A DNA stretch of 64,000 nt from Mangifera indica (lineage: Eukaryota > Streptophyta > Magnoliopsida > Sapindales > Anacardiaceae), in contig NC_058146.1 of the NCBI RefSeq assembly GCF_011075055.1, positions 8,308,001 to 8,372,000 on the forward strand, in the 5' to 3' direction. The notes beneath the pieces are model-generated. The model saw only the letters and a program-made list of their open reading frames with translations. It had not been told where the DNA came from and did not search any database. The translations under genes were made by a program, and so were the position numbers. Below, piece after piece: positions 4,370-60,769 of the stretch. Every line of letters begins with the position of its first letter. The first letter of the stretch is position 1.

Positions 4370-5280
4370 AAAAAGTCCTATCCTTTAGCGTAAAGTACTA
4401 CTAATTCAATATCATACATGTTCAACAATATCAACATAAGTTGATGGTTCTAAGTAACATGCACATATCAAATAAAATCTAGAATGCCTTAAGTCTTATT
4501 ATTAATCAACATAATAAGTATCCAGTCTATTCAATATCCCTAAGTATTTCTAATAAAAATCTAGAATAATCAAATCATCAATGTTACTAATATCATCATA
4601 ATTAATCATAGTTATAAAAATAGAAGTTTATCAAATCTATGAGTCCATCGACCACATGCTGCTCTATCATTTACTAGTAGCCTTACCATCATCACCTACA
4701 AAATCAAAACGAAGTACTGCCCTTTTACTAGTAGCCTCACCATCATCACCTACAAAATCAAAATGAAGGGAGTGAAAAATACCCTTTTTAGAAGTACTGC
4801 CCTTTAAAGAAAGATGTCACTAAATCGACTATTTGAGCATGCATACATTTATGAAAACATTTAAAAACATATGAATTAATTCACATATAAACTTGGATAA
4901 AACATCATTTATAAAATATGAAATTACAAAAATGGCCTTACACCAAAAAATCATAAACGTGACAAAGGATGTCCATAAGTACAAAAGCATACCTAATATA
5001 AATTTAATGTGTGGCTAAATATATCATGATAAATTATGAAAACACAAGGTTATTAAATCATAGAACTACCAAAATGCCCTTGACTACTTTATGCCTACTA
5101 ACCATCGCTCCCTTCGTAACCATCATGATCACTTCTACTTGTACACATGAAAATAGAAGAGTGAGTGATGAAAGACTTAATAAGTAAGAGACTTTTAACT
5201 TGTACTAACATCATCATCCGAAGTTTGTCACTAAACTCTCATTAGGATAATGATGGACATGTATCTCATATCTCATATTT
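4370..5280. repeat. LTR-like fragments of a TAACACC-type retroelement
   Basis: Two LTR-end-like blocks occur: one at 4365-4415 (ATAACACCCCATCCC followed by a 'cgtaaagtacta' motif) and one at about 4780-4840 (an 'agtactgccctttaaa' motif). Similar words begin the LTR-like block at 53830 (TGTAACACC...), and they recur in reverse complement at 10885-10935. The sequence around 5150-5175 ('agaagagtgagtgatgaaag') is also inverted around 10560-10600. TGTAACACC ends are common in plant Gypsy LTRs, so that class is an inference. Confidence 0.35.
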
Positions 5281-5611
5281 GTATTCATATTGATCTCAAG
5301 AACATCTAAGCTATATATCATAACTCTCATATCAAACTATGTCCTGCTTAGCTATTAAGAAACCATTTTCAAGATCCCTACTAAGGTGACCATTATATTT
5401 TTACATAAAAGAACTATCATTTGGAAGATATGTCCCATAGTTGATACTAAGTTGATTGGAATAGATCGAATACAAGGATTTGACACATTAGCCATGTGAG
5501 CACTCGTTATGTAATCCACTCACCTATAGACTGTCCAACATTACTATAATTAGGCTTTACTTCGAGCTAGTACCTTACTGTAGGTACAATATCTTATTGT
5601 GGACATGCCCT

Positions 5612-6076
5612 TAGGGCTAGATACGAGCCAAGCCGAGCTTGAACAAGGCCCAGCTTGTTTTCGACTCATTTTTAGTGAGCCTAAGCTTAAGCTCAGGCTT
5701 GGGCTCGGGCTCGGGCTCGTCAAGCTCGCTAAACGCATATTCGTGTTCGACTCGTTTTATAATTTTAGTGTTTGGGCTTGGCTCGCACTTAGCTCAGATT
5801 CATTTTGGGCTCGTATGTCAAAGAACAAATGGTGTCGTTTGTTCTAAGTTAAATGTTTTTTATTTGAGTGCTTGGCTCACGAGCCAAGCTTGGCTCACGA
5901 GCCAAGCTTGGCTCGCTTAACTGGTGTTCGTATTCGGGTTCGTATTCATTTTTTGCTTAAAATTCAGGCTCATGTTTGGGCTCAAGCTCTTTCAAGGCAA
6001 GCTCGGGCTCGGGCTCGGGCTCGTTCCAACAAAGCTTATTTTGAGCCCGAACAAGCTAGCTTCGAATCTACCCCTA
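5612..6076. mobile_element. hAT-type MITE with GCTCGG-rich body
   Basis: The termini are inverted: TAGGGCTAGATACGAGCC on the left, and reverse-complement TAGGGGTAGATTCGAAGC on the right. A perfect 8-bp target duplication, CATGCCCT, lies at 5604-5611 and 6077-6084, as expected for hAT elements. The 465-bp body contains hexamer runs of the GGGCTC/GAGCCC type near 5690-5720 and 6000-6025, and direct AGCCAAGCTTGGCTC units near 5880-5912. Overlapping reading frames here only reflect this repeat composition. No transposase is present. Confidence 0.82.
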
Positions 6077-9000
6077 CATGCCCTACTACTGGTAGGATAA
6101 GAAGTTTGTACTTATAGTGCCCCCTTATAACAACCCTAGGGCATCTAGTATGCATGCATCTCAAGCCTTAGATTACTTTGGGCTCATCTTAGCTTTCACT
6201 CTAATCATAACTTGTGTCTTAATATAATCTCATCTTTTGGTACATTGGGTACTATTTATAATCTTTATTAGGATGATCTATAAACTTCTAGCCTAGTTCC
6301 CTTTTTTTCTTTCTTTATTTTGCCTTTCATACATAAGTGTGTCTTTTGGAATACATAGGCATGTATTTTTCCTTGTACATAAGACACGACTATCCCTTTA
6401 AAGGGATGTCTCTACTATGTTTTACACATAAACATATCACTTTTGGGACAAAGACATGTTTTCCTTTTATAACATGCATGATCTTCATTCACTGTGGCAT
6501 TTCCTTGTGATAACAAATTCCATGGTACATCGGCAAGTAGGTTTGTAGACTCAATTGTGTGCCTTTTCTAGACTTAACATTTTTCTCAAACTTAACTTTA
6601 CTTCAACCATTTTACTTTTCAAGGGTACTCTAATCATTTCACCCTATACAAGGTCATGAAACTTAATCTAAATTATGGGTTTCATGCACACAGACATGTA
6701 TCCCATGCCACACGATAATGTAACGAACCTAGAAAAGAACTATAACCCTAAAACCATAACCTAAAATCTTCTTATGCAATTTCTATTGCATCATATTGAG
6801 TCTTGAATACTTTCCAATATCCAACCAATCCTATAAGAACTATTAATGGCACATAATTATAATCTAACAACTGATATTTAGACTCAAACACAAGTTTCTA
6901 TGCATACTTTCTTTCTTTACACAAGTTTCAACAGCAAGCAAGTTCATATTCACATAAAAAGAATCAATGTCAAACATAATGAATTTTACTTAATTCATTA
7001 TTGCTTTCTCATTAAACTAAAACATAGATCTATCATACCATGAAATTACAATATTCAAGATTCATCAATGCAAGAGTCTACAGTCAATAATCACCATAAA
7101 AATCAACGATAATTAACAAAAACCATCACAATAATCAATATTTAGTTTAGGCAAAGGCAAAACCTCAATCCACCATCATTCATACATTGCTAACAGAGGG
7201 AGAAAAATCTTACTTATCTTTATTCCAAAGTTGCAGAACTAAGGTTGAACCACTTGCCTTATTCTCTCTACTTTCTTTTTCACTATGTTGTTGGAAATCG
7301 ATCACCACAGTTGCCATAACAATGCCTGAAGATTAGTCTCAACACTCATTTTTTTACAAGTTTTCATGCATTTATTTTTGGGATAAAGATCCCTAAAACA
7401 CAATTAACATGTCAAATGTATACTATTTCTATATAACGTCATACATGGGCATGTGTTGCACCACACACAGTTGTGTGTCATTTAATTTAAAAATTACACA
7501 ACGCTTTTCTTATCCAATTAACGTGACAACCAACACACAAGCGTGGCCACTGCATGCAACGCCGTGTGTCACTTAAAATTCTCATTTCAACATTTATGCA
7601 TATTAATTTAATCACACATCAATGTAATCATGCAAAATGACTACTATGCCCTTGAGATGTATTTGTGAGTGTTACATGATCTATCATACAATCCATTAAT
7701 TAAATATATTATTTTCCTTTTCTAACTTAGGTTATCCATAATCCAATTTAAGGTTGCTCAAATCTCAACCAAGTAGAAGGAATCACTATACCCACTATAG
7801 CAATTAATCTCTAAGGCTCTCAAGTCTTAGTGGTTTTATCTCTTTGCCAATCGATAAACTCTTAGGTCAACTTATCAATCTATGCCCTAATTATCATACT
7901 TTTTATGTCTTCGTAAGTCCTAACCAGTTAACAAACATATGTACTTGACAATTTTCTATATCTAAAAACACCAATCAACAAATTATACCTTATCTACATG
8001 TATACTTGGTTATGGGTACTCCTTTAAGTATGTCTATAATCTCAAAAGAAACATAGTGGGTCAAACATACTTAGTAAATAGGTGGTCTCTCGACACTAAA
8101 CACACAACATAAATCACAAACATAATTAACAATTTGTGTTCTATGTTATAACCCAATGTGACATTTCAGATTTCTTTTCACATCTTGGAGGCCCATTTGA
8201 CTATTCCTCATGCCCAATCCCCAATAATAGTGTCATCTTGGATGATTAAAGCCATATAATGTGTATCGGTGTCCTACACACCTAGTGAAAGCCTAAGATA
8301 TCCCAGATGTCATTCATAAGGTGCACCCAATACACATGTCAGCCAAACTTTGGGCTATGGATACCATATCAAAGGAGGAGTAAACCTCGAGCCTCTCCCA
8401 ATATTACATAAACATCTCAAATGCTAAGTCATCCAACATCATTGCATGCACAAGTATCATAGATGCTAAGACGACTAACAATGGTGCATAATCTTCAAAC
8501 GCGTATTAAGGTCACATAAATTGGCCTAAATGTTTTCAGAAATAACATACTGTATCATTTATAGTTTTTGACTCAAAATCGCCTTGATCAAGGTCCATGT
8601 CGTCATACATATAGGGGGCACCCCCAAGATCCCTTCGTGTCATCAAACACACAGTTAGGCATGGTTACTTGAGTACCATATCATGTTACCTTGTTAGGGT
8701 CTTACTAGTTATTCCTCATGATTGACCTTATAGGGGTAAAATAGTTATTTTCATGATCATTTATGAGTATAAAAACTTTACTTTATCATCACTACTTTTA
8801 TACACTTTCATTATCAAATTTTCCTAAATGTACACAAGGGAGTACTTATTTTACATAAATGACTATGTTTTGAGCTAACACAAACATGCAATTCAAGGTG
8901 GCATACACAATTGTGTGTCTCATACCATACGGGTGTGTATCAATTCCTAAATTAATAGTCATATAGCTTCAACCTAACACAGAGACTATTCGTCTCTAAA

Positions 9001-14333: not shown

Positions 14334-15311
14334 ATGAAAGCCTCTTTGAAGTTTCGCGAAGACCAGAAGCCCCTTTTGCGAGCCAAGGTTCCCCTCTCAA
14401 TCTTGGGCTTGCCGTTTCAATCCGGTATCATCGCCGGTGAGTCCAAGGAGCTCACTCTCAATCTGTCCACCTTCTTCGAATCTGGACCGTCTGTAAGGAT
14501 CGCTTACCGTCCTAACGACACATGGAACCCCTTCTCTATGGTGGTTAAAACCGGAACAGGACCGTTCGGTTCGCCGATATCGAGTCCTATTTTGATGAGC
14601 GCCGAGTTCAATTTACTCGGCCGGGGAAACCCTAGCTTCATGCTTCACTTTAAGCCTCAGTTCGGTGACTTCTCCATAAAGAAGTCTCAGTCTTCCCTGT
14701 TAAGGTCTAAGAGCGGCGCCGTTTTGGAGGAGAACGATTCTTCAATTGAGGTTGTGGAATCTCCTATGTTGAAGAAGCTCACGATTTCGCCGTCGAAGTC
14801 CGCAGCAGATTTCGCAGGATTTTTGTCTGGTATCGAGATGGCGGCGAGGACTACTCTGCCGGTGAAGTCACGTGCCATCCTGAACTTCCGATGGGGGGTT
14901 AGGGTTCCTGCCGATACAAGTGTCGAACCAACGGCTGGGATCAATTTTAAAAGGATTCCGTTTCTGGTTATGAACAAGATAGGGATCGAACACGTGGACG
15001 GTGGAGATTCGAAAGGAAAAAACAAAGATCACAAGAAACAACAAGTGATAGCAGGACAGGAATTGGGCCTGGTAGGCAATTCTAACATGGCCGAGCTGTG
15101 TTTTAACGTTAAACGACAGTTGGAGATTTTGCAAGGTGAGAACGGTTTGTTGAAGAAAGCCCTCGACGATCTTCGACAAGAAATTGTATACAAGAACCCG
15201 AGTCCGACCCGGGATTTGAATCCGGGTCGCCGTAGCAACGAGAAGAGATTAGCTGTGATGGAGGAAGATGGGAAGGAGGAATTGAAGAAGGCATTGAAGG
15301 CGCAGGTTTGA
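14334..15311 (+). CDS. OEP40-like plastid outer-envelope channel protein
   Basis: This is a single open frame of 325 codons. I start it at the ATG at 14334 (MKASLKFRED...), because the open frame upstream has no ATG and reads like leader. The N-terminal half (residues 1-115) is rich in short alternating strands and contains GIIAGESKELTLNLSTFFES and SAEFNLLGRGNPSFMLHFKP. From memory these match the plant-specific family of Arabidopsis At3g57990, described as the outer-envelope pore OEP40. OEP proteins form beta-barrel channels in the chloroplast outer membrane and need no cleavable transit peptide; none is seen here. Residues about 150-215 form a second strand-rich block. Residues about 252-288 look like a short coiled coil, and the tail is charged. 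The gene is intronless as drawn. Its 3' half was copied to 27402-28137. Alternative: another uncharacterised plant DUF protein; the channel role is inferred. Confidence 0.72.
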   Translation: MKASLKFREDQKPLLRAKVPLSILGLPFQSGIIAGESKELTLNLSTFFESGPSVRIAYRPNDTWNPFSMVVKTGTGPFGSPISSPILMSAEFNLLGRGNPSFMLHFKPQFGDFSIKKSQSSLLRSKSGAVLEENDSSIEVVESPMLKKLTISPSKSAADFAGFLSGIEMAARTTLPVKSRAILNFRWGVRVPADTSVEPTAGINFKRIPFLVMNKIGIEHVDGGDSKGKNKDHKKQQVIAGQELGLVGNSNMAELCFNVKRQLEILQGENGLLKKALDDLRQEIVYKNPSPTRDLNPGRRSNEKRLAVMEEDGKEELKKALKAQV

Positions 15312-15858
15312 TGTTTAATGAAGTTATTTTCCGTTACGAAGACGTAGAAGCATAATAAGGGATTGTGTTGATATTATGCGATTGTCTACAGAAGTAAAGC
15401 TCGTAGTTAATTTTTGCGTGTGGATAATATAATTGTTAAGTTCTCCAAGCATCAGTGTAGGGTCTGGATTCGAACTGAGTTATTTAATTTGAATCCTTGA
15501 AAAAATTGGATTAGCACTTGTTTAATTATGAAGGTGGATTTTTAGAAATATTGTTTTGATTGAATTTAGAGGGCTCAAATATCCAAATTCATTTACATGA
15601 TCAAGATTTGTAATATATGTTTTAGTGCTTTTGAATATATTTTTTAAATTAATTACAACATCAATATAGAAATGAACATTGTCTCTGTAATTAATGTCTA
15701 CTCCTCTCCTTGGACAAAATATATTTTTCTTTTATTCAACGATCATGTTTGATCCACCTAATGTGGAGTAATCACCATGTACCCAATGTTCAGTGCATCT
15801 GACCTCCGCAAATCAATAATAATAACATTGATCCTTGATACATCCTTACAATTTTTTG
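15312..15858 (+). other. 3' flank of the OEP40-like gene
   Basis: The first 213 bases (to about 15524) are also present in the pseudogene copy at 27946-28137, which shows that the duplication took 3' untranslated or flanking DNA as well as coding sequence. No further gene is visible up to the hAT fragment. Confidence 0.5.
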
Positions 15859-16869: not shown

Positions 16870-19800
16870 TTACGAAGAATTCTCCTCTGAATTCAAACCA
16901 AAAATGGGTAGGAAACGGAGACCCATAATACGAAAATCTTCCCATTTCGGCTCAGGTTCTGCAGGGGATGTGATTATGCAATTTTGGAGAGATGGGAGAG
17001 ACTTTAATGTTTGATCCAGTTGAGGAATATTTGGACATGACAATATTTGCAAATCAACAATAGCTGTCAAATTTTGCATCGCACCCACTGGAAAAGATTT
17101 TAGATCAGGAATTTTAAACAGAAGCATTGACTTTAAGTTGGAGAGAGGGGCAGAAAGGCATGAGGAAGTTGATGGTTCCTCTTTATTCATCAACATCATC
17201 GTCATCGTCATCGTCTGCTGCAGCGGTTTCGAGTTTGTCTTGAGCAATTTCAATTCTTTCAAAGATGGATATAGCGGCATTAACATCAAACTGCGGCAAT
17301 TTTGGATATCTAATTTGGAAAGACAAGGAAATGAAGGCAACTCTGTATCATTATAATCATGCTTCCTCCACCATCCCTTTAATTCAGGACAATCGTAAAG
17401 GGTGAATTCCTCAAGGGATTGGAAGAATGTTGTTGGAAGTGTGGATGAACTCTTATTTGCTTCGTCTGAAATGTACTCCAAATTATCTAGATGGCTAAGA
17501 AACAGATTCTTCAAGCATGGCAATTTATCCAATGGTGGGATATGTTTGCATCTTCTACATTTTTTGATACTAATTGAAGTTAAATTTGTAAGAGTCAAAA
17601 GCCAATTGCACAGTTTAACACCCATGAATGATCTCACACTAATTTTCTTAAGATTTGGGTGTGGCTTTAGACCTTCTAACACCACTTCATCTATTCCTTC
17701 ATTTCCTCGAAACTCTCTATCATCACTTCTTCCCCAATCCAATGTCAGAGACCAAAGAAATTGCTTCCCTTCTAAGTTGGCCAACTTGCTACTTTCCTCA
17801 AATTCCAAGTTCTTAATTTTGAGTTTTCCTCTCAAGTTGTTCAGCCTATATAATTCCTCTGTCCCACTGTAATTGCTTTTTTTGTTAGCCTGTTTAGTTC
17901 TTTCACTTACTACAAATAGTGGTAGAGTCTGAAGATTGGTTAAATGCCCTAGTCCATAAGGCATTCCAGCTAAAGAATCACACTTTTTATTTATAAGATG
18001 CCTAAGGTTCACCATTTTTTTAATATCTTTGGGTAGCTCCATGAGCTCACTACAGTTAGAGAGGTCTAATGTTTCCAAATTTACTAGTCTCAACAATGAA
18101 TCAGAGAGTAGTTTTATATCTACACCAGAAAAACTGAGATATCGCAAATGCTTCAATTTACCAATTAAACTCAGAACTTCCCCATTTAAACCCAACAGTT
18201 TCTGAAATCTTAACCCTCCAAAATCTAATGCTCGTAAGTATTCATAACTTGTTAAAATTTCATCACCATCATCCAAGTTGAAACCCCAATTTAATCTACA
18301 AAACAAAAGCAAAGTTCTTATATTTTTTCCACTATATAACACAACTGGAAATGTCCATAATGCTTTTACTTCACCACAATCAAGTGATAAGTGGCGACAT
18401 CTTACACTCACATTTTCAACTGTATTAAAAGTTTGCACGGTGCATTCAGTTCCTGCAACTAATTGTGCAAGGTCATGCATAAGATCATGCATCTTACAAG
18501 AGACTACATTGCCCCATCTATCATATTCCGGATCTTGGAAAAATGATCCTGAAAGTAGAGTCAAAAAATATTTATCAGCAATATCTTCTGGACACTCTCT
18601 GTTTGACATTTGAAGAAACCCTTGTGCCATCCAAAGATGAATCAATTTTTGCTTCTTAATCTTATAATCCTTAGGAAACAATGCACAATAAGCAAAACAT
18701 TGTTTCAAGTTTGAAGGGAGATGATCATAACTAAGCTTGAGCAATGGTAAAATATCACTTTCTTCTTTAATCACCTTTGACATTTCATTTTCCTTAAAAT
18801 TCAGCCAATCATCTTCCTTAATATTACCAGACAGTAATTGTGCTATTGTCATTATGACAAGAGGAACTCCACCACACTTTGCTACAATCTCTTTTCCTAT
18901 CTCTATTAATTTTGAATCTTTTGGTTCCACCCCATGTTGAAAGGCTTTCTGCATAAACAAAGACCAAGACTTTTTTTCATCTAGTCTTGTCAAGGTGTAG
19001 ACATAAGATTCACGTTTGGTAGTAACCTTAGCAACTACTTTACTACGTGTAGTAACTAGTATCTTACTTCCTTTTGAGCCATTCATTAATAGATCAGTCA
19101 ATTCATCCCATTTTTTCTGCTTTTCATTCCATACATCATCCAAAACAAGTAGATATCTTTTCCCATCAATTTCTTTCCTAAGGAATTCTTGCAATTCATT
19201 CAAATGAAAAATTCCAAGTTCTTTACGAGTTGCAGATTTTATTATCTTTTCAACAATTATCTTTACATTAAATTCTTCAGAGACACACACCCACATCCTT
19301 AATTGAAAATAGTTTTTGACATTTTCATCATTATAAACAAGCTGAGCAAGTGTGGTTTTTCCTACTCCTCCGAGTCCAACTATGGTAACAACCAAAACAT
19401 TCTCAGAATCATTTGAGTCCAATACAAGTCTTATAACATTACTTTTATCATCATCTCTTCCAATTACCTTTTCTACACGTATGAAAGAGTGAGTTTCCCT
19501 TTCTATACTTATGACTCCTTTTTCAACAGAACGCTTAGAAAAGTGAAACTGCTCATCATTTTTTATTTCATCTAGTTTCCCTCTGATAGTCTTAATCTTA
19601 TGAGCCATTCTAAGGCTATATGCTATTTGATTATATATGGAGCAAAAGATTCGTACCTTATTAGACAATTTGTTTCCATTCATCACCTTTCGCCATCGAA
19701 GTTCAGTAGAGAAATCGTCTAACAAGTCATCTGCATCATAAAACGCATCTTTAAGCCTTTGGATCCAATTGGTTACCTGTTGGTTCATTTTGTTGTGCTG

Positions 19801-19962
19801 CTCCTCAGCATCAAGAAGTATAGATTTGATAGTCTCGACAGTGTCATTGAGTTTTTGAATCTCATCCTTAACACCCCATGCCAATTTGCCTTCTTGGACA
19901 AGCAAGGACCCCAGCTCTTCCAAGATTTTCCCCGCAACGCTAAATAGAATGCCTTCAGCCAT
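16870..19962 (-). CDS. CC-NB-LRR disease resistance protein (RGA type)
   Basis: This is an uninterrupted one-exon frame of 1030 codons, a usual length for RGA-type CNLs. These are intracellular immune receptors that bind ADP/ATP and trigger cell death on recognising pathogen effectors. Order of parts: an Rx-type coiled coil (residues 1-150) with the EDVID-like DADDLLDD at 76-83; the P-loop GLGGVGKTT at 196-204; RNBS-A; kinase 2 RYLLVLDDVW at 269-278; RNBS-B SKILVTTR at 299-306; GLPL as GGVPL at 364-368; RNBS-D with CFAYCALFPKDY; and an intact MHD (491-493). Leucine-rich repeats run from about 560 to 1000, e.g. LVNLETLDLSNCSELMELP. The final W of kinase 2 marks the non-TIR class. All NB-ARC motifs are intact, so it is probably functional. 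It starts at the MAEGILFS methionine, typical of the family. No NLR cluster is present in the window; it appears alone. Confidence 0.95.
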   Translation of the reverse strand: MAEGILFSVAGKILEELGSLLVQEGKLAWGVKDEIQKLNDTVETIKSILLDAEEQHNKMNQQVTNWIQRLKDAFYDADDLLDDFSTELRWRKVMNGNKLSNKVRIFCSIYNQIAYSLRMAHKIKTIRGKLDEIKNDEQFHFSKRSVEKGVISIERETHSFIRVEKVIGRDDDKSNVIRLVLDSNDSENVLVVTIVGLGGVGKTTLAQLVYNDENVKNYFQLRMWVCVSEEFNVKIIVEKIIKSATRKELGIFHLNELQEFLRKEIDGKRYLLVLDDVWNEKQKKWDELTDLLMNGSKGSKILVTTRSKVVAKVTTKRESYVYTLTRLDEKKSWSLFMQKAFQHGVEPKDSKLIEIGKEIVAKCGGVPLVIMTIAQLLSGNIKEDDWLNFKENEMSKVIKEESDILPLLKLSYDHLPSNLKQCFAYCALFPKDYKIKKQKLIHLWMAQGFLQMSNRECPEDIADKYFLTLLSGSFFQDPEYDRWGNVVSCKMHDLMHDLAQLVAGTECTVQTFNTVENVSVRCRHLSLDCGEVKALWTFPVVLYSGKNIRTLLLFCRLNWGFNLDDGDEILTSYEYLRALDFGGLRFQKLLGLNGEVLSLIGKLKHLRYLSFSGVDIKLLSDSLLRLVNLETLDLSNCSELMELPKDIKKMVNLRHLINKKCDSLAGMPYGLGHLTNLQTLPLFVVSERTKQANKKSNYSGTEELYRLNNLRGKLKIKNLEFEESSKLANLEGKQFLWSLTLDWGRSDDREFRGNEGIDEVVLEGLKPHPNLKKISVRSFMGVKLCNWLLTLTNLTSISIKKCRRCKHIPPLDKLPCLKNLFLSHLDNLEYISDEANKSSSTLPTTFFQSLEEFTLYDCPELKGWWRKHDYNDTELPSFPCLSKLDIQNCRSLMLMPLYPSLKELKLLKTNSKPLQQTMTMTMMLMNKEEPSTSSCLSAPLSNLKSMLLFKIPDLKSFPVGAMQNLTAIVDLQILSCPNIPQLDQTLKSLPSLQNCIITSPAEPEPKWEDFRIMGLRFLPIFGLNSEENSS

Positions 19963-20050: not shown

Positions 20051-23000
20051 ACAAAATCAGGACCCAAACATAAAATATGAAAAAGATACTTGACTTATTG
20101 ATGGAAATCCAAAGCCTAAAGGAAAGGTGATAAATACTTGGCGTAATTATAGAAAAAGATGACCAACCATGGACACAATGTTTTGCTTTGGTGATAATCA
20201 AACAGTTACCAGTCAAAGAAAATTTTCAAGCTGGATCTCACCCGACAAAACTTTTATAACAGTCATCCTGCAAAAACTTTAAGTTGTGATGGGGGAGAAT
20301 CCAGGGAAGGTTTTTTCCTTTCAAAAATTTGTATATACAAAAGGAGGAAGAGATAACAAAAAAGGTAAATGGTATTATTCATATGTTACATTATAAACTA
20401 GCGAGAACACAAATTTCGATTAGCAAGTATCGCGTATGGCAAATCTGTCTCAAATGAAAACAAAGTTTAGTCATTCAATTAAGTTCACACGTCCCCTTTC
20501 AACTGAGGTGCATGAGCTGCTACTAGAGCACATATCAAGAGAAATTTATCATCGTGACAACTTGTTCATCTACATCACATTAAATGTAGCATGGCAGCAC
20601 CCCTTCTAATAGCACACATGCTACTCATGCCAACAAAGATCCAAACCCCCTATGTCATGACAAGTACAATAATGTTCTTCCCTTCTTACTTTGCAACTGA
20701 AGGTTTGCTCGGTGAAAAGGTGGGCCAATTTCTACCAAAAATATAGACGATAAAGAGACTATAAAGGGAGGGAGAAGCTCACCCGCTCTTCCCGACTATG
20801 ATAGCCAGCAATGACCCTTCTCTTCCTATCCTTCTTAAAGCTTCAAAAAGGCATTCTCTGAATTCTCTTCAAAATCATTATGAGAACATCTAATATAACA
20901 TTAGATTTCATTTAAAATTGTCCTAATACCTATAGAAAATTTGACCACTGTAGATTTCATTTAAAATTCATTTATCTCGCCTACTAAATTTCGAACAACA
21001 ATTCATTCAAATTTATCTCAAAATTTTGGTTACAATGAGATCTAAAGTTAGTATTAATTGATTTAATCACTTATTTTAATGTTTACAGTGATGTTTAGCA
21101 TTTCCAAGTAAGATTTTTAATTTTGGTTATGAATTTCATGTTTTTAAGTTAAAATTTGTTGTTAATTGGTGTAAATACATTTTATGTTAGACTTGTGGCT
21201 TGAAAATGTGATTAAGTTAGAAAATGGTAGATTTTAAATGGATGGGAAGTTTATGGATTCTTATTAAATTATCAAATTTTGCTGATGAGATTTTGGCCAA
21301 AAAGTCATTGATTTTCTGTGTAGTAGACATGAAATGCCCAATAGGCGTACTGGGCATATCATGTCTAACTACATTGTTAATTAAACAAGAGGGTAATTGG
21401 TAGGCGATGCACCTACCAAGGGGCAATTTATAATTTGTTGGTGCATGGTAAAATGATATTTCATAATTTATTTATTTTTGGTTTTTTTTTTTTTTTGTAA
21501 AGTATGGTTGTTAAATGTTTAATGGTTTAAGAGAACCTCATATATTATAAATTATAAGAACGAGGTGGCCGGTAACCACTCTACACATTGCTTTAGTGTG
21601 CAAGTAATTGTTAGATGACATAGAGAAATAATGTACGATGTTCAGGACAAGTCAAGTGAAAGCCATTGGAAGCTCTTATGTGAAACTTGCTTTAGACCGT
21701 TTTTAGATATTGACGAGCATAGACTTAGTATGATCCTTGTCTAATTTGTGCTCCCTAAAAGAATCAACCATGGAGACCTGTGTTAGACTATGTGTTTTAA
21801 AGCCAACATTTGGTTGATGTATCTATATATTGATTTATATTTGTATCATGTTTATATTAATAAAATGACAATTATTTGTAATACTCCTCTTTAGAGAAAC
21901 ATCCTCTAAAGAGAATTTGCATCTAAAAGGGTTTGTCAACTTTACTTCAAGACAAGTTATTTGAAATCTCAATGTAACAAAAACAAAATGAACAACAATA
22001 AATGAGTAAGAATAAAATTTATCTTTATTAAATAACGTGCAAAAGATATGTATACACACACACACATATATACTAACCATAATCAAAACTCATTATCCAT
22101 GACATACTGAATGTGTATAATACATGATCTCAAAATACATACTATAACCATAAAGAAATGACTTAAACAAATTCAAATCCTTGATGCATCCATGAAAGCG
22201 GATACCTGCTCCTCTTATAGCCCCATGACTCATCTCCTACTTGCAGAACAATCATAACAAATGAATGTGTTAAACACTCAGTGAGTACCTAATGGTTTAT
22301 GGTTGAATATAGTTGTGAAAATGACAAACATGAACTCATTAAAGCATGATAAGACTGTATAGATGAAAAACAAGCATAATAACAAGAAAATGTTTAGATT
22401 TTATACCTTTCTCCTTTGCAAGAATGCTTAGTTTGATGAAGTAGAACATTTGAATACAAATTTCTCCAAAAGTAATCCACCTACTTAAGAGAGATGTGAG
22501 AAGCCAAATGTTTATAAAACTTTTAGTGGGAGAGAGTTTTTTATTCAAATGATGAATCTTAATAAAATGTGCCAGATGGTTGGTTTATATAGTTGTGGGC
22601 TAAAAGTCATTATTAATTTTGCATGACATCACACTAATTAATTCTTATTTTTAGTTGTGATGTCAATAAGTAAACACTTTAAGCACTCTTATTATATTTC
22701 AAATGTCACAAATACATCTATGTAGCCCTTTACATGCCTGATTTTACTTTATCACACTTTGGAAGGTGTTGACCATCCCTGGATAATTATTTCTCTCTTA
22801 TATCTTTCCAACTTCTTAGGTTTATACGTGTGACTTTCTAGATTCACGAGTGTAAAGTAAAAAAGTGCACTGACATGAGGTGGGTATTGGGGTTCAGTAT
22901 ACCTTGAATAGGAATAAGTCTTTTGGCCTTTACGATTTGATGGATTATGATTTTATATTAATACGTCTAGATGATGGATTATTTATTAGACTACTATAAT

Positions 23001-24036
23001 AATGCTTGGAGACAATGATTAGAGATATTATTATCCTTATTAATAATACTGAGACATTTTAGATTATATGATTTAATTTATGCATGTTGATTTATTGTTT
23101 GACATCTTGGATGGTGATGTTATTTAGGGATATATGGTATTGAAATCGATTTTACAAGAAAGCAGATTTAGTTCAATTCAGATGATGGAAATAAGTTTAC
23201 CTTTGGGAAGGGTTGACACTAAGTATGATAATTAATAGTGTGAAAGCAAGAAAAATTTTGAGCAAAGGTTGTATAGGGCATTTAGCTTATGTGGCAAGTA
23301 AGATAACAATTTTCAACTCATATGTATATTAGTACGTTAGCAGTGTGAGATTTTGTAGATGTGCTTCAAGACAATTTGTTCTGATGCATTGGCCTTAAAC
23401 ATAAGGTGTTAAGTTGGTATCAAGTACAACAACTATATCCAAGACTCAGAATAGAATGGCTTCCAACCAAACAATTCTTTTTCAAATTCAAAATTGGCTC
23501 ACAAGCGTGAGGTTGACATAATCACTCATACTCTTGCTCCTACCCATAATTTCTTCAAATTATAAACAAATTCACAACAAAACTTAATAAACCAAACTTG
23601 ATCTTATTCTCCTAGCTCAAATACATAATAACAATAAAGAATTGGTGAAAGAATAATATTAAAATTAATTTTATTCATACTAGGATATAAAATGTATACC
23701 CTAAGAAATCTTTAAATTTTGGACTCAAATTCGCATCAATTCTTGAAAAATTTAAGAAACAATGTAATCAATGTTTAATTACTTGGACTGAGATGAATTT
23801 ATCCTTGAATTTCATGATTTTTAAGTGAATTTTAGTTGAAATTGTAGATACATATGACAAGAAGAGACTAAGGTTTACGTAAGGTTAGAGATAAGAGTAT
23901 AATTAATATTATATTGTTTTCACAGTTATATATATAGATTTTGTAAAGTATTGGTTAATATAATATTAACTTAACGTTATTTCAATTAATTATTCATATT
24001 TTAATATAATCGTTAGAGGGAAAGTTAATTGATTTA
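20051..24036. other. Gene-free intergenic DNA
   Basis: Nothing here codes for a recognisable protein. Poly-T runs (about 21480) and a short CA-like run (about 22055) occur. At about 22905-22928 the text 'aataggaataagtcttttggcc' resembles a right end of the foldback Mutator family, but no partner end or 9-bp duplication was found. Confidence 0.4.
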
Positions 24037-24172
24037 GGCCAATTTTTCCCACTTATACATTTTTAGGCAAAAAATTTTGAATTTGCCTGTTACCCATCCA
24101 AAACCAGAACCCATTCAAACGCCAAGCTCACTCTCACTTAAACCAAACTAGAAGAAAGCACGCCATGCCATT

Positions 24173-24506
24173 TGTCACAGGCTAAACTTGGGAGCTGTGG
24201 CAGGGCTTTGGGCAGCTATGAGGTGATGACGATCTTAAGAATGAGTATGCGTGATCATTGGGTTTCGGTTGTTGGGAGTGCTCCAGCCACGGGGCGTGCG
24301 CAATGTTGCTGAGGTAGCGCATTGAAGGGGGGACTAGGCCAACCCCGCACAAACTGGTCGGGAGCTGGAGCCGCTCTCCTGATGAGTCCAAGGCAGGACG
24401 AAACCAGTGATTCGATGCCACTATGTGGACGCATGCAAGGCTGATCCTCGAGACGAGCCTGCACCTCGAGGATGCCGCACAGGGTACGGGGAACACCCCT
24501 GTGACA
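24173..24506 (+). mobile_element. Solo LTR of a hammerhead retrozyme
   Basis: A 334-bp GC-rich block stands out from its AT-rich surroundings. It begins TGTCACA and ends TGTGACA, perfect 7-bp inverted ends in the TG...CA form of an LTR. It is bounded by a perfect 5-bp duplication, CCATT, at 24168-24172 and 24507-24511. A full hammerhead ribozyme lies inside (24353-24408). Plant retrozymes are small non-autonomous LTR retroelements whose LTRs of roughly 350 bp each carry such a ribozyme; their transcripts self-cleave and can circularise. Only one LTR with its own duplication is present, so this is a solo LTR left by recombination. Open frames on its minus strand result from GC richness and are not genes. 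Confidence 0.88.
24353..24408 (+). ncRNA. Type III hammerhead ribozyme
   Basis: All core elements are present in order. Stem III is ACTGGT (24353-24358) with ACCAGT (24403-24408). The cleavage-site C is 24359, so the cut falls between 24359 and 24360. Stem I is GGGAGC (24360-24365) with GCTCTC (24373-24378), allowing one G-U pair, closed by a 7-nt loop. The core CTGATGA is 24379-24385. Stem II is GTCC (24386-24389) with GGAC (24396-24399) and loop AAGGCA. The core GAAA is 24400-24403. Stem III is the open end, so the topology is type III. No invariant base is missing, so self-cleavage of the plus-strand RNA is expected. Confidence 0.95.
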
Positions 24507-24576
24507 CCATTCATTGTGACAACCTCCATGAGAACCACCATCAACTACCGAAAACAAGCCACAAAAACACAAGAAA

Positions 24577-27401
24577 ATGGATGAAGAGGTAATTGTTTTT
24601 TGTTTTATTTTGATTGATTTATTCGGTTTTGAGTTTTGATTTGGACTGATTTGTTTGGTAGTTTTGTTATTGTTTTATGGATGAATCGTTAAGGGTGTGT
24701 TTTGGATTAGGCCAATTGACGGTTATAAAGGTTTTTTTGGCAATTTTTGGCTGACGGTTTTAGGGTTAATCGCTGGTGGCTTAAGTAATTTTTCGGTTGC
24801 TTTGTTGCCGGAAGATGTCGTAAATTGTATGAGAATAATTTATTTAGTTTGTATTGTGATGTAAGTCAGTTTTTATGGCTGGAAATGGAAGGAAATGGTG
24901 AGTGGTCGACGAAGGTCACTGTTCGCATCACAACAAGCCACGCCATGCCCAGAAGTCACCACGCCCGCACGCTACACCCATTGCACTATTCATACACTGT
25001 TTATAGAATATAAAAATTAGTTTCTTTTATGTTTTCTTTGAATTTATTTATTTTAATTATTAATTAATTGACAATCCATAGTTCATATTTACAAAGATTT
25101 TCAGTGAATGGAGAGCCCGGGGAGAGGCAATTTCACAATGCGCACAGTTTTAAGGTTACGACAAACGTCCAGAGCCACAGGAACATGATACAAGATGTTA
25201 GGGTAAACTTAGATTGTGCCAAAAAAAAAAGTTTAGGCAAACATCCTTTGGCCAATTTTTGGACCTTGAGGTACATCGGCACAGTGCAGTCCTTATACAC
25301 TGTGTACTATTTCAACAAGTTAATAAGGGGCAGTCAGGACGAGTTTTGGTTTAGGATGAACGAGGTGGATTGGTGATTTAGCCTCGTTGAGTTTGCAATT
25401 GTGATTGGGTTGCTATTTAGGTAGACAAATATAGATGAGTATATAAAGACGAGAGGAACCCTAAGGTTTCGGGAGATTTATTTTTGAGATGTCACACATG
25501 TGACATATGACGATCTGACCAAAGTTTTTTTGTCTTAATCATGGGGCAATTGTGACGTTGATGCAGTTAAATTAGTTGTGTTGTATTTGCTCCATGTTGA
25601 GTTGATGGGAACATATAAGAGAAAAATAGTTTCGAACTGCATCTTACGTTTAGTTAATGACTAGGATTCTTTCAATAGGTTTTTATGGGGGATAATCGTA
25701 CGGGTGATGACCTCCAAGTCCATTAGCTGAGCAATCAAAAAAAGGTATGAAGATGTGTTGAGTAAACATCGCCCATATATAGAGGACATCCCGTTGCAAA
25801 ATTATGCATTAATGGGAAGCATTTCAAGTACGCTTATATATTGATTCAATTTTTTTATGTATGATTATGCATTAAAACTTTATAATCATTGACTCGATAA
25901 CCCTTTCATTCAATATAGTCGTGGATATATGAAACTCTAAGCAATTTGGGGGATTTCATCGATTACAAGACCAAAGACAAGCTCCCTTTGGTGTTAAAAT
26001 GGAGAATTGTCAAGCGTCTAGGTTGGGAGCACATTTATATCATATTTGAGGCTTTGTCGGTACATTATTGCCATTACTTTGCCATTTTTTAGTTAAAAAC
26101 CATAGTTTTGTGTTATAACTTAATCAGAATTTGTTACGTTTGGTAGAACATTGTGATATTTGTTTTGATTCTTATAGGGGATGAGAGAGAGTCATCTTGG
26201 TATAGAGTAGTATTAGAATACATAGGCTATCAAGATGAACCTAATGAGTACTTTAGCCTTGTTCCATCTCTCAAAGCCATCCATTCTCCTTACAGGGCCT
26301 TTCAACGTGCTTTTTATGAGGCTTATTAGTGTATACCTGTTTGCAGTCCATCCATATTAGACTAGTATCCCCTACCAATTGATAAGTCACCTTCTAGTTT
26401 GCACGTCTCTCACCCTAGTCTTTGTTATAGACTGTTTGATCCCTTAGTCTTACCGCATGGTCTACAAATTTGATTACATAGCTTACTAGTCTTGGCATGA
26501 GGGTACCCCCCATGTTGCGACCCTTAAACCTGTACTAGGTCCTTCATCCCATCATGATATTGGTCGATTCGAGGATCTATTAGTGGGTTTATGGATTCAG
26601 TAGAGCAACGTCTTGGATAGTTTGGGGAGCACTTTGCATTAATAGATTTGTAGTATGCTATGTTTGAAGGTAAATACATGGTGTTTGAAGCTAGATTTAC
26701 CAAGTAACAATGCATGTATTATGGCGCTTGAAGTTGGCTGACCATCGAAACAAAGAGATGAATTACATGAGATACTCTAATTTTTAAAATGGTATGAGAA
26801 AGCAAATGATAAAGATAAGGTATCAACTTATTTGTATGACCTTTGCAAGAAAATGGACTAACGGTTCAAACTGTTCAGGAAAAATCCATGGCTCATGGAT
26901 GAGGTATGAGAGGTGTCAATACATAGTATTATTTCTATTTTAAAGTGAGTAGTTATTAATTACATCATTGTTTCTATATATATATTTGTTTACAACACAT
27001 CAACAACTACCTAGTCATGTTATAACACTCACACCTCTCTGCTAATTGGACATACGTTAATTTGTCTTTCGATGGGTGTGATTATGGGAGAGGGAGGTGG
27101 TTGGATTAGATAATTACAAATGGCTTTCATGTCTATTAAACCTTATTGAAGGTAAAAGTTAGTCGGATAAAGATCAAGGCTTCATTGCATGGGCTAAAAT
27201 GGATAAAGACTATTGAACATTATAAATACATATTCTTTACAACCATTTTTTTTTATATATTTACAGTTGGTTTATGATTTTCAATATATGTGTTAACCAA
27301 GTTATTTTGTTGGTGCAGGTATACATCTTAGTCAACTACGAAAGTCAACATTGGGCATGCAGTGAGTTAGATCTCAAATCTTAGACCTTTACGATCTATG
27401 C
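24577..27401 (+). pseudogene. DUF1985/Ulp1-protease gene of Mutator type, decayed
   Basis: Several frames carry pieces of the plant transposon-borne DUF1985 plus C48 (Ulp1-like SUMO protease) protein. Pieces include LIRGSQDEFWFRMNE (about 25320), then EFAIVIGL, then a block like 'DAVKLVVLYLLHVELMGTYKRK' (about 25560-25625) and 'SWIYETLSNLGDFIDYKTKDKLPLVLKW' split over 25915-26000. Near the end comes VYILVNYESQHWACSELDLKS (27320-27380), which contains the His-Trp of the C48 active-site region. Stops and frame changes interrupt every part. A possible start, ATGGATGAAGAG followed by GT, is at 24577. Such genes ride in plant Mutator-like elements (Kaki/CUMULE type). The protease is cut off at 27401, before its Asp and Cys, where an OEP40-like fragment begins. 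Confidence 0.7.
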
Positions 27402-28137
27402 ATTGAAAAAGCTCATGATTTCGTTATTGAAGTCTGTAGCAGATTTCGCCGGAGTTTTGTCTAGTATCAAGATGGCGGCTAGGACTACTCTGTCGATGAA
27501 GTCATGTGCCATCTTGAACTTTCAATGGAGGGCTAAGGTTCGTGCCGATACAAGTGTTGAATCAATGGTTGGGATCAATTTTATAAGGATTCCATTTATG
27601 GTTATGGACAAGATTGGGATCAAACACATGGACGATGGAGATTCAAAAGAAAAAAAAATAAAGATCATAAGAAACAACTAATAACAGGATAGGAACTAGG
27701 CCTAGTAGGTAATTCTAATATGACCGAACTGTGTTTTAATGTTTAATGACAGTTGGAGATTTTGCAAGCTGAGAAAATTTTGTTGGAGAAAGTCATTGAT
27801 GATCTTTGATAAGAAATTGTATACAAGAATCTGAGCTCGAGTTAGGATTTGAATCCGAGTCACTGTAGGAATGAGAAAAGATCAGTTGTGATGGAGGAAG
27901 ATAGGAATGAGGAATTGAAAAAGGCATTGAAGGAGCAAATTTGATGTTTAATGAAGTTATTTTGTGTTATGAAGATGTTGAAACATAATAAGGGATTGTG
28001 TTGATATTATGTGTTTGTTTATAGAAGTAAAGCTCGTAGTTAATTTTTGCGTTTGGATAATATAATTGTTAAGTTCTTGGACTCGAACTGAGTCATTTAA
28101 TTTGAATCCTTGAAAAAATTGGATTAGTACTTGTTTA
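27402..28137 (+). pseudogene. Truncated duplicate of the OEP40-like gene
   Basis: The sequence aligns along its length with 14768-15524, i.e. from residue about 146 of the OEP40-like protein to its stop and on through about 210 bases of 3' flank. Shared protein text includes KSVADFAG.LS.I.MAARTTL and ADTSVE...GINF.RIPF.VM.KIGI. The copy has many substitutions, a stop after about 92 codons and small deletions (about 20 bases are missing near 28075). The N-terminal half and promoter were not copied. Both junctions are abrupt: on the left, decayed Ulp1 sequence; on the right, a broken foldback Mutator element. It lies on the same strand as its parent, about 12.6 kb away. Confidence 0.9.
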
Positions 28138-28718
28138 TTCAACTTCAGTTTCCAGATCTTCATCTTCAACAACTGATGATCGTTAGCTCTTTCCCTCCGT
28201 CTTTCTAGTCGATTGGTCTTCCATTTTTGGTTATCTTTGTCAAAGTCTTCGTTAGAGGAAGACTGGTCATCTTGTCTTCAACAAAAATGGTTAGAGAGGG
28301 AAGACCAATCGATTGGAAAGATGGAAGGGAGAGAGCCAACGACTGGTGACTACAATTGGTCGCTAGAGATGAAGATATGGAAACTAAAATTGAATAAGGG
28401 TTAAATTGAGATTTTTTAAAACTCTAGGGGGTGGCTTGTTTTTACAAAAAATGAGAGTTTTGCAATCCTAGATTTTGGGGCGGAAAGAAGGGGTAGTTAA
28501 TTTTTAAACTTAGAAAATATAAGATTAGATGATAGAAATAAAGATTTAAAAGTTTGAGGGAATTCAAAATATAAGTTTAAATAAAATTTTTAAATAACAA
28601 TTTTACCTTTGATAATATTAATGAAATTTAATAGATGTGTGAGTATTTAGCTTTTTAATATTTAACAGGTAAAAAAATAAGTTTAGATCAAATCTCGATG
28701 GGAAATACTTATTTGGCC
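28138..28718. mobile_element. Foldback Mutator-type MITE, copy 4, left end lost
   Basis: The right end, 'gatgggaaatacttatttggcc', matches the family terminus. The hairpin centre is clear: 'cgattggtcttcc' (about 28208) faces 'ggaagaccaatcg' (about 28298). The left outer arm is missing; the body joins OEP40-like pseudogene sequence at 28137/28138. With one end gone, no duplication can be checked (the right flank is TAATAATAA). Confidence 0.7.
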
Positions 28719-48999: not shown

Positions 49000-50420
49000 T
49001 ATTGCAGATGCTATTTTCACTTGGACAATAGTATCTGAGCGAATATAGGTCAGCATGTCCTCGAGGTGATTCATCCTATTATCCGAAAGATCCTTCATAC
49101 GAGACATCCGATCCTCCATAAGAGACTTCCTATCTAATATAAGATTGCCCCATTATGCCAACGCAGCATCAAAAGGGGACAGAATTAGTGCAACAACATC
49201 ATATGAGAGTTGAATAAGTGATGAGGGCACGATTAGAGAAGTGGGCTATATGCACTAGATCATGGGCACACGTCTGGGTCGTCAACAAGTGCCATGATAG
49301 AGGTGGGATAAATGCTTGGAGAAGAAACCTTTGTAGGAGTTGAGGATGATGATGCTAATGTCAAGGAGAAATGATATAGACTTGATATTCCTAAGAAGCT
49401 AATGACCTCGACATACTATGTTGTGTGCTCATCATTTTTTTGTAGCAATCAAAGGGAAATTCACATCATCCTATTCAAAAAATATAACAACTAAAATTTT
49501 TTGCAAGGTGATTACTCAAAATAATTATTCAATCAATTAATAATTTCAAAGTAACTAACCGTATCTCCAATGAATATTGTTCTTATGCTACTTTATCTCG
49601 GTATGTCTTTCACCATCCACTTGAACATGTAGGGAAACACCATACTATCTACCAAATCCACCCAATCAGTTAGTGAGTCTAGTGTCAAGTATATTCAAAA
49701 CTACAATATCAAAATCAAAGTTTACATTCCATCAATTACCGCATATTTGGTGAATATTTTTTTAATTTTCTTACAATTAAAAAAATAATTTACAATAATG
49801 CACTTACTTGGAAAACATGTAAAAACCCCATTATACTATACTTTTTCTTATTGGTGCTAGGTAGTTTCGATGATATCCTCTCAATGGATTGGCATATGGA
49901 CCAGTATGTCATATCCCATGCCACTACACCTTACTGGGAGATATTAAATCCATCTAAATGATCAACCAATTGGAGAAACTATGGATTAACCTTTTTTTAT
50001 GGTCATTCGCTAGTAAAACCTATGAAGACAATATAATAGAGCCAACTTAATGGCGTCCTCATCAACAGCCCTTTATGGTCTTGCTTTAAATATCATCTCG
50101 ATATCATTGTGGCTCATTGAATTAGAACCCCTAAAATATGTTTCCCTAATCTTTTCACCGACACCTTATGGAATATACATCCCAACGTCCTTGAATTTGG
50201 AGAAGTGAAGGTCAATGATCAGAGCAAACTCGAATGGGTTGAACCCAAAACCATAACTAGTTTCTTATGTCACCCCGTATAACCTGTCTTAATATGAATG
50301 AGTGAGCCAAAACTGCACTAAATCTCTTGTCTTTGAGATTCATAAAATATCCTAAACATGTCCTCTCAAACATTTTTAGCTAATCCTTGGTCAATAAAGA
50401 TTTGATTAGGGTCATTGTCT
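49000..50420 (-). pseudogene. DUF1985 gene pseudogene in the Mutator element
   Basis: Minus-strand fragments: 'GYFMNLKDKRF' and 'HSFILRQVIRGDIRN' (about 50270-50355), 'FEFALIIDLHFSKFKDVGMYIP' (about 50180-50240), 'GEKIRETYFRGSNSMSHNDIEMIFK' (about 50085-50160), and 'AVDEDAIKLALLYCLHRF' (about 50020-50075). These follow DUF1985 in order. A later piece (about 49010-49115) reads RMNHLEDMLTYIRSDTIVQVKI. I did not find the C48 protease core, so the C-terminus seems lost. The parallel fragment at 24577-27401 keeps DUF1985 and part of the protease. Confidence 0.65.
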
Positions 50421-59999: not shown

Positions 60000-60769
60000 A
60001 GCAAGGAGAATAGTTTATCTCAATGACAAACACACCTAAAGTAAAGGCATCAATTGCCTTCTTTTTCTTGATCTCTAGAAAGACTTTGCAATATCTCTTC
60101 TAATGACCTACCTTGCTATAATAAAAATAGATAACCTTTCCTTTCACCACACTACTTGTAAGTTGAGTAGTAGTATCATATTGTTTCTTTACTTTGGCTT
60201 GGGCTTTGCTTTGGCCTTGCCTTTACCCTTGGCCGTGACTTTTAATGTTTGGGCTTCAACCATAAGCACATTAGTCAAAGCTACCTTTTGTACTTCTTGT
60301 TCAGCTTGTCTAACCATAACAACAACTCTCTAAGGGTTTTCTTCTTTTCGTTTAGGTTAAAATTCATAATAAAATTAGTCCACGATTTAGGGAGGGATTT
60401 TAGCACTACGTCAATGACAAGCTTTTTTTCTATGATAAAGCCTAAGCTTGTCAAATGCTTAATGTAGCCAATCATCTTGACCACGTGAAGACCAACTTGT
60501 CCTCCCTCAGAGAGTTTGCAATCTAACAACGTACTTAACATCTTATATCTTTCAACCATTGCACTTATGTTATATAACTCTAGAAGGTATGCAAGTATGA
60601 ATTGTGCATCCATTTCCTTATATTCTTTTTTAAGCTCAAGTGACATGGAAGTCAATATGATGTATCGAACTTCCATGAACTCATTAAGATACTTATTAAA
60701 AGTATCATTTTCCTCCTCGGTGGTATTAGGACTAGGTTTAGGGGGCAACGATCCATTAAGGATATACAA
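60000..60769 (-). pseudogene. Copia gag remnant C (best preserved)
   Basis: An open 162-codon minus-strand frame (60769-60281) holds LPPKPSPNTTEEENDTFNKY and VERYKMLSTLLDCKLSEGGQ, followed by GLHVVKMIGYIKHLTSLGFI and VVLKSLPKSWTNFIMNFNLN, a good match to UBN2-type Copia gag. Beyond the stop, a zinc-knuckle relic (YYSKVGH.KRYCK, about 60080-60130) has lost its first two cysteines. It belongs to the unit whose pol lies at 58880-59775. Confidence 0.85.

Follow-up and report, generated by a model that had tools for sequence, protein, structure and literature searches.

A type III hammerhead ribozyme in an Anacardiaceae genome lies within the solo LTR of a retrozyme

The 64,000-nucleotide stretch of DNA analysed here (the window), which lies on contig C10 of the 391-Mb assembly that we searched as the genome, raises a simple question: why does a plant genome carry a hammerhead ribozyme at this place? 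An earlier note covered the ribozyme alone. We find that it lies within a solo LTR, 334 bp long, that derives from a retrozyme, and conclude that the hammerhead is almost certainly the ribozyme of a plant LTR retrozyme, left here as the solo LTR 24173-24506.

The complete type III hammerhead claimed at 24353-24408 of the plus strand is borne out by its core, its topology and its alignment to the covariance model, and its sequence and coordinates agree with those first reported. Stem III pairs 24353-24358 with 24403-24408 (6 bp); stem-loop I (24360-24378) has 6 bp (24360-24365 with 24373-24378), one of them a G·U wobble, and the loop UGGAGCC; and stem-loop II (24386-24399) has 4 bp (24386-24389 with 24396-24399) and the loop AAGGCA, the three stem lengths being those already described. 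The core consists of CTGATGA (24379-24385) and GAA(A) (24400-24403), helices I and II are closed by loops and helix III is open-ended, as in type III. The cleavage triplet is GTC, of the NUH type, with U24358-C24359 directly 5' of the predicted cut; the alignment to RF00008 places the predicted self-cleavage between C24359 and G24360, which is where the earlier note had put it. In addition, GGC of loop II could pair with GCC of loop I.

The match to RF00008 (Hammerhead_3) spans 24352-24409 and all 54 positions of the model (1-54 of 54), with agreement in core and topology, and scores 42.4 bits (E = 7.6e-8 for the 701 bases searched and 6.9e-6 for the whole window). In this alignment stem I is represented by the 5 bp adjoining the core, and, relative to the model, loop I of the window copy is longer by 6 bases and loop II shorter by 2. 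The proposed check with the covariance model therefore came out in two ways: the whole model is covered at E 6.9e-6, but the score of 42.4 bits lies below the gathering cut-off of 48.5 bits, formally the outcome that the earlier note had named as refuting, and a scan of the window at that threshold consequently returned no match. This cut-off is a curation threshold and not a defining feature of type III hammerheads, and it is a poor test in this genome, because at least 21 RF00008 matches were found there, the best at 47.7 bits, and 0 of the 21 reach 48.5, yet the matches recur in homologous LTRs. Among the best candidates, to which scoring was confined, 14 control genomes gave no RF00008 match. 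Neither the RF00008 search nor a search for the core plus stems found a second hammerhead in the window, an exact 26-base piece of the hammerhead had 0 matches in viral contigs, and pieces of its sequence searched as text in published papers gave no match.

What surrounds the ribozyme points to its origin. The hammerhead lies in an element of 334 bp (24173-24506, plus strand) that has TG...CA ends and matches elsewhere in the genome that cover precisely its bases 1-334. The element begins with the 9-bp terminal inverted repeat TGTCACAGG (24173-24181) and ends with its 9-bp counterpart CCTGTGACA (24498-24506), and the identical five bases CCATT flank it as a target-site duplication on the left (24168-24172) and on the right (24507-24511). 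Among the 11 candidates formed by TG...CA pairs around the hammerhead with a duplication of 4-6 bases, 24173-24506 stands out: none of 3000 dinucleotide shuffles had both a duplication of at least 5 and inverted ends of at least 9, two had a duplication of at least 4 with 9-bp ends, and one matched the observed sum. The LTR is 58% GC, against 32% for the window; in 40-base steps the GC content is 47-68% at 24161-24560, 42% at 24081-24160 and 12-33% further upstream to 23801. The predicted cut is LTR position 187, and the hammerhead is thus placed inside an LTR of 300-400 bp, as in plant retrozymes. The fold energy of the LTR is not exceptional (z -0.95, with 34 of 200 shuffles as stable, for the whole LTR; z -1.22, with 10 of 100, for 24160-24545). 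No second LTR was found in the window, one of the searches spanning 22000-27500, and no primer site adjoins the LTR, the sole match in the window (at most 2 mismatches) being at 49029; since both are absent, we class the element as a retrozyme-derived solo LTR and not as a complete two-LTR retrozyme. Likewise, the polypurine tract GTGGGGGAGGGTT before the LTR and the AATGGTATCAGAGC after it are absent at the window copy.

Several other features share the window. A direct duplication (14764-15524 and 27396-28137, 83.5% identity) covers a portion of an uncharacterised plant gene that has relatives in Pistacia and Mangifera. A protein encoded in the window has a Pistacia vera protein (86% identity) and a Mangifera indica protein (79%) as its best named matches, so the host most likely belongs to the Anacardiaceae. 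An open NLR disease-resistance-type gene of 1030 residues (Rx_N, NB-ARC, LRR) occupies 16870-19962 on the minus strand, an ORF at 60281-60769 on the same strand matches the gag protein of copia-type retrotransposons, and at 28200-28321 (plus strand) microRNA precursor families match weakly, with 31 bits against much higher cut-offs.

The LTR belongs to a family, with at least 42 matches in the genome, the window included, several of which span exactly LTR 1-334. In a sample of 39 copies at different places, taken from loci L001-L042, the hammerhead core is intact in 27 and the core together with all 16 pairs in 18, and 13 copies (the window copy included) have an identical 56-base hammerhead. 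Ten of these 13 lie on contigs C61 and C143, which share 99.3% identity across 13.7 kb; as the two contigs may represent a pair of haplotypes or a duplicated locus, their copies are not independent. The relatives supply the parts that the window copy lacks. The polypurine tract GTGGGGGAGGGTT abuts the LTR start TGTCA in L009, L010, L011, L012, L014, L026, L027 and L028, and the LTR end GTGACA is followed by AATGGTATCAGAGC, which fits a tRNA-Met primer site, in L009, L012, L014 and L028; further, more diverged copies have variants of both (24 loci inspected). On C61, 356 bp separate the LTRs, and this centre is non-coding and shared among several relatives. Four LTRs stand in a row there, with hammerhead spacings of 284, 700 and 701; the first LTR is shortened, and the next starts 8 bases later. 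Hammerheads about 700 apart are found on both C61 and C143. Around the C61 array, the search for rRNA found no Rfam family above its cut-off. When LTR-type ends and duplications were checked at 13 loci, 5 gave a match and 8 did not: L041 (1041 bp, duplication ATAA) and L038 (1531 bp, TAAT) are two-LTR elements and L003 is another solo LTR (345 bp, TATA), while the matches at L036 and L040 are doubtful. The duplication is 4 bp in L003, L038 and L041, versus 5 bp at the window copy. A further locus, L049 (C5:4717500-4727499), holds at 4594-6431 a retrozyme unit running from primer site to LTR with a second primer site; an inverted copy of the initial 121 bp of this unit (95.9%) follows after about 1.6 kb.

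Could a GC-rich stretch simply have matched the hammerhead pattern by coincidence? On its own, the core motif (CTGANGA...GAAA) is ordinary, with 4 occurrences in the window against 4.94 expected, and because about five are thus expected by chance, only the joint pattern counts as evidence. The fold energy of the hammerhead is ordinary too (z -0.58; 53 of 200 shuffles equally stable), and a sceptic may add the missed Rfam cut-off. However, the core with its three stems (stem I of at least 5, stem II of at least 4 and stem III of at least 5 bp) occurs at exactly 1 site on both strands of the window, at none in 140 simulated windows and at none in 150 single strands of LTR-like composition, in keeping with the earlier judgement that the full set is unlikely to arise by chance. 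The E-value for RF00008, the recurrence of the motif in homologous LTRs with retrozyme anatomy and the share of copies with an intact core also speak against a coincidence, which we regard as extremely improbable.

No more credible is the proposal that the locus is the integrated DNA of a viroid or viroid-like satellite, comparable to the carnation retroviroid-like element, rather than an LTR element. A GC-rich sequence with a type III hammerhead on one strand is what such an origin would share with the window copy, but the TG...CA ends with inverted repeats, the target duplication, and the primer site and polypurine tract found at the same ends in several relatives are those of an LTR element; viroids are not known to have either a primer site or a polypurine tract. 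A hammerhead domesticated to cut a host transcript at this locus deserves slightly more attention, given that the motif is intact, its stems are complete and it is identical to 12 other copies. We nevertheless consider it very unlikely: no host exon was recognised nearby, the ORFs at 24.7, 25.1 and 27.4 kb have no Pfam match (three were scanned of the 17 ORFs listed around the element), that at 27.4 kb lies in the duplicated piece of the plant gene, and the element is common to mobile copies elsewhere in the genome. The solo LTR of a retrozyme is the reading that we retain.

Is the ribozyme itself conserved? Across the 39 copies, conservation averages 0.939 within the hammerhead and 0.891 elsewhere in the LTR, with 9 of 279 stretches of the same length as conserved or more; with 26 non-redundant copies the gap all but closes, the values being 0.914 and 0.896, and 43 of 279 stretches are as conserved or more. 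The window copy and a copy on C5 differ at 0 of 56 hammerhead sites and at 19 of 276 sites in the remaining LTR (p 0.027). Of 38 pairwise comparisons, 17 were inspected: p was below 0.03 in 13, mostly mutually related, and in the other 4 (C13 and three on C18; p 0.06-0.23) the hammerhead was not significantly better conserved. These sequence comparisons lend modest support to selection on the ribozyme. Among 27 distinct hammerheads, 400 of 432 pair cells are paired, versus 150-214 of 351-432 in slid controls; pairs are frequently disrupted in variants (C-A cells) and there are few double changes, so that the support from covariation for the stems is weak.

Folding predictions depend on how much of the LTR is included. 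For 57 nt, the mean native stem probability is 0.91 for stem III, 0.39 for stem I and 0.98 for stem II, and the best fold places stem I two bases away from its native position and gains 0.1 kcal/mol over the native structure. The corresponding values for stems III, I and II are 0.66, 0.29 and 0.80 in 24300-24460, 0.02, 0.06 and 0.04 in 24330-24430, and 0.00, 0.01 and 0.73 in the whole LTR. The model thus predicts that the hammerhead is blocked in the whole LTR, as in published retrozymes: in the 2016 retrozyme paper, LTR regions fold with the hammerhead in a blocked conformation, and transcripts of cloned fragments were cleaved at 54-75% despite this predicted fold (PMC4918200). Since those retrozymes still cleaved, a predicted blocked fold neither excludes nor shows activity.

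Retrozymes are a known kind of plant element, to which the Anacardiaceae family described here is a new addition. Those of Jatropha, citrus, strawberry and eucalyptus (Cervera, Urbina and de la Peña 2016, PMC4918200), compared here by their described anatomy and not letter by letter, carry type III hammerheads in LTRs of the same size (about 330-350 bp), and they share with our family the tRNA-Met primer site, the polypurine tract, the non-coding centre, multimers, solo LTRs (frequent in Jatropha) and the blocked predicted fold of the LTR. The hammerhead spacing given there is of a similar order: 697-776 in Jatropha and 665-694 in sweet orange. The differences are that their hosts belong to other families and that their reported target duplication is of 4 bp and not of 5 as at the window copy. 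This duplication and the Rfam score below the cut-off are the departures of the window copy from the published type; we took 4 bp as typical of published elements, not as defining for a solo LTR. NbRZ1-9 of Nicotiana benthamiana (PMC9695139; PMC12029980) likewise have LTRs with a type III hammerhead, a primer site and a polypurine tract, and many LTR fragments are present in both cases; transcription start and cleavage were measured there, whereas our comparison is by description and our analysis one of sequence.

What we observe are the hammerhead, the LTR ends, the target duplication and a family that includes multimers and has a primer site and a polypurine tract; the life cycle that would connect them follows the published retrozyme model. 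In complete copies the LTR would be transcribed and the hammerhead in each LTR would cut the transcript; two successive cuts would free a unit of about 700 nt, which would then be circularised by ligation; tRNA-Met at the primer site would prime a Ty3-gypsy reverse transcriptase to copy this circle into DNA; and a Ty3 integrase would insert the retrozyme DNA. The window copy would be what remained after the two LTRs of an inserted element had recombined, or else a one-LTR cDNA that was inserted as such; both are likely origins, which the data do not separate, and solo-LTR cDNAs were proposed in the discussion of the 2016 paper (PMC4918200). Since a unit-length circle requires two cuts, a lone LTR cannot give rise to one. 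If transcribed, it would at most cut read-through RNA at 24359/24360.

Which element might supply these enzymes? On C61 we found a Ty3-gypsy chromovirus with reverse transcriptase, RNase H, integrase and chromodomain, and with an LTR of 856 bp (148964-149819). It has the same primer site as the C61 retrozyme, 20 of 23 letters are equal over the polypurine tract and LTR start, and 7 of 9 at the LTR end. Moreover, the two are joined in the assembly: at L044 (C61:146001-156000) the retrozyme multimer stands between the chromovirus LTR 148964-149819 and a second LTR copy starting at 152178, with the left joint at the 12-nt primer site and the right joint at the 9-nt CACAGGGTA, which is found in both partners. 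At L012 (C143:55200-59500) a retrozyme multimer is again enclosed by chromovirus LTRs, with the same motifs at both joints. A second joined element, at 434-1845 of L027 (C6:14901050-14904394), has a different Ty3-like LTR, running from TGTCACAGCC at 434 to CCTGTGACA ending at 1146 with TATATAAA inside; directly after it come the primer site, centre, polypurine tract and LTR of a retrozyme.

The arrangement on C61 and C143 suggests the chromovirus as a helper. We put forward, as a tentative idea to which we give a little less than even weight, that a chromovirus of the C61 type provides the reverse transcription and integration of this retrozyme family, also of the window copy, and that the joined elements on these two contigs are relics of template switching, within a single particle, between the RNAs of helper and retrozyme. 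However, the chromovirus is part of a tandem array whose units measure about 4.4 kb, so recombination of DNA could have made the joints, and these are known only from the assembly of small contigs, parts of which read N. The published case for a Ty3-gypsy helper is the similarity of boxes (PMC4918200), and the literature searched, mostly without subscription journals, held no report of a retrozyme joined to a Ty3-gypsy element. The nearest parallel is the carnation retroviroid-like element, whose CarSV DNA is joined to the pararetrovirus CERV at similar joints, as outlined in a review (PMC11722881): in both cases a hammerhead RNA copied into DNA is joined to a retroelement at short homologies, but carnation has a pararetrovirus as the partner, whereas our case pairs the RNA of a retrozyme with a Ty3-gypsy LTR retrotransposon.

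The element in the window is a clean example of why plant genomes hold hammerheads, namely as part of retrozymes, and for its host, most likely of the Anacardiaceae, it adds a retrozyme family that has intact ribozyme cores and multimeric arrays and to which a candidate helper is joined. If the helper reading is true, what had been inferred from box similarity becomes physical evidence, and a candidate helper joined to retrozymes would make the question of how plant retrozymes are mobilised directly testable.
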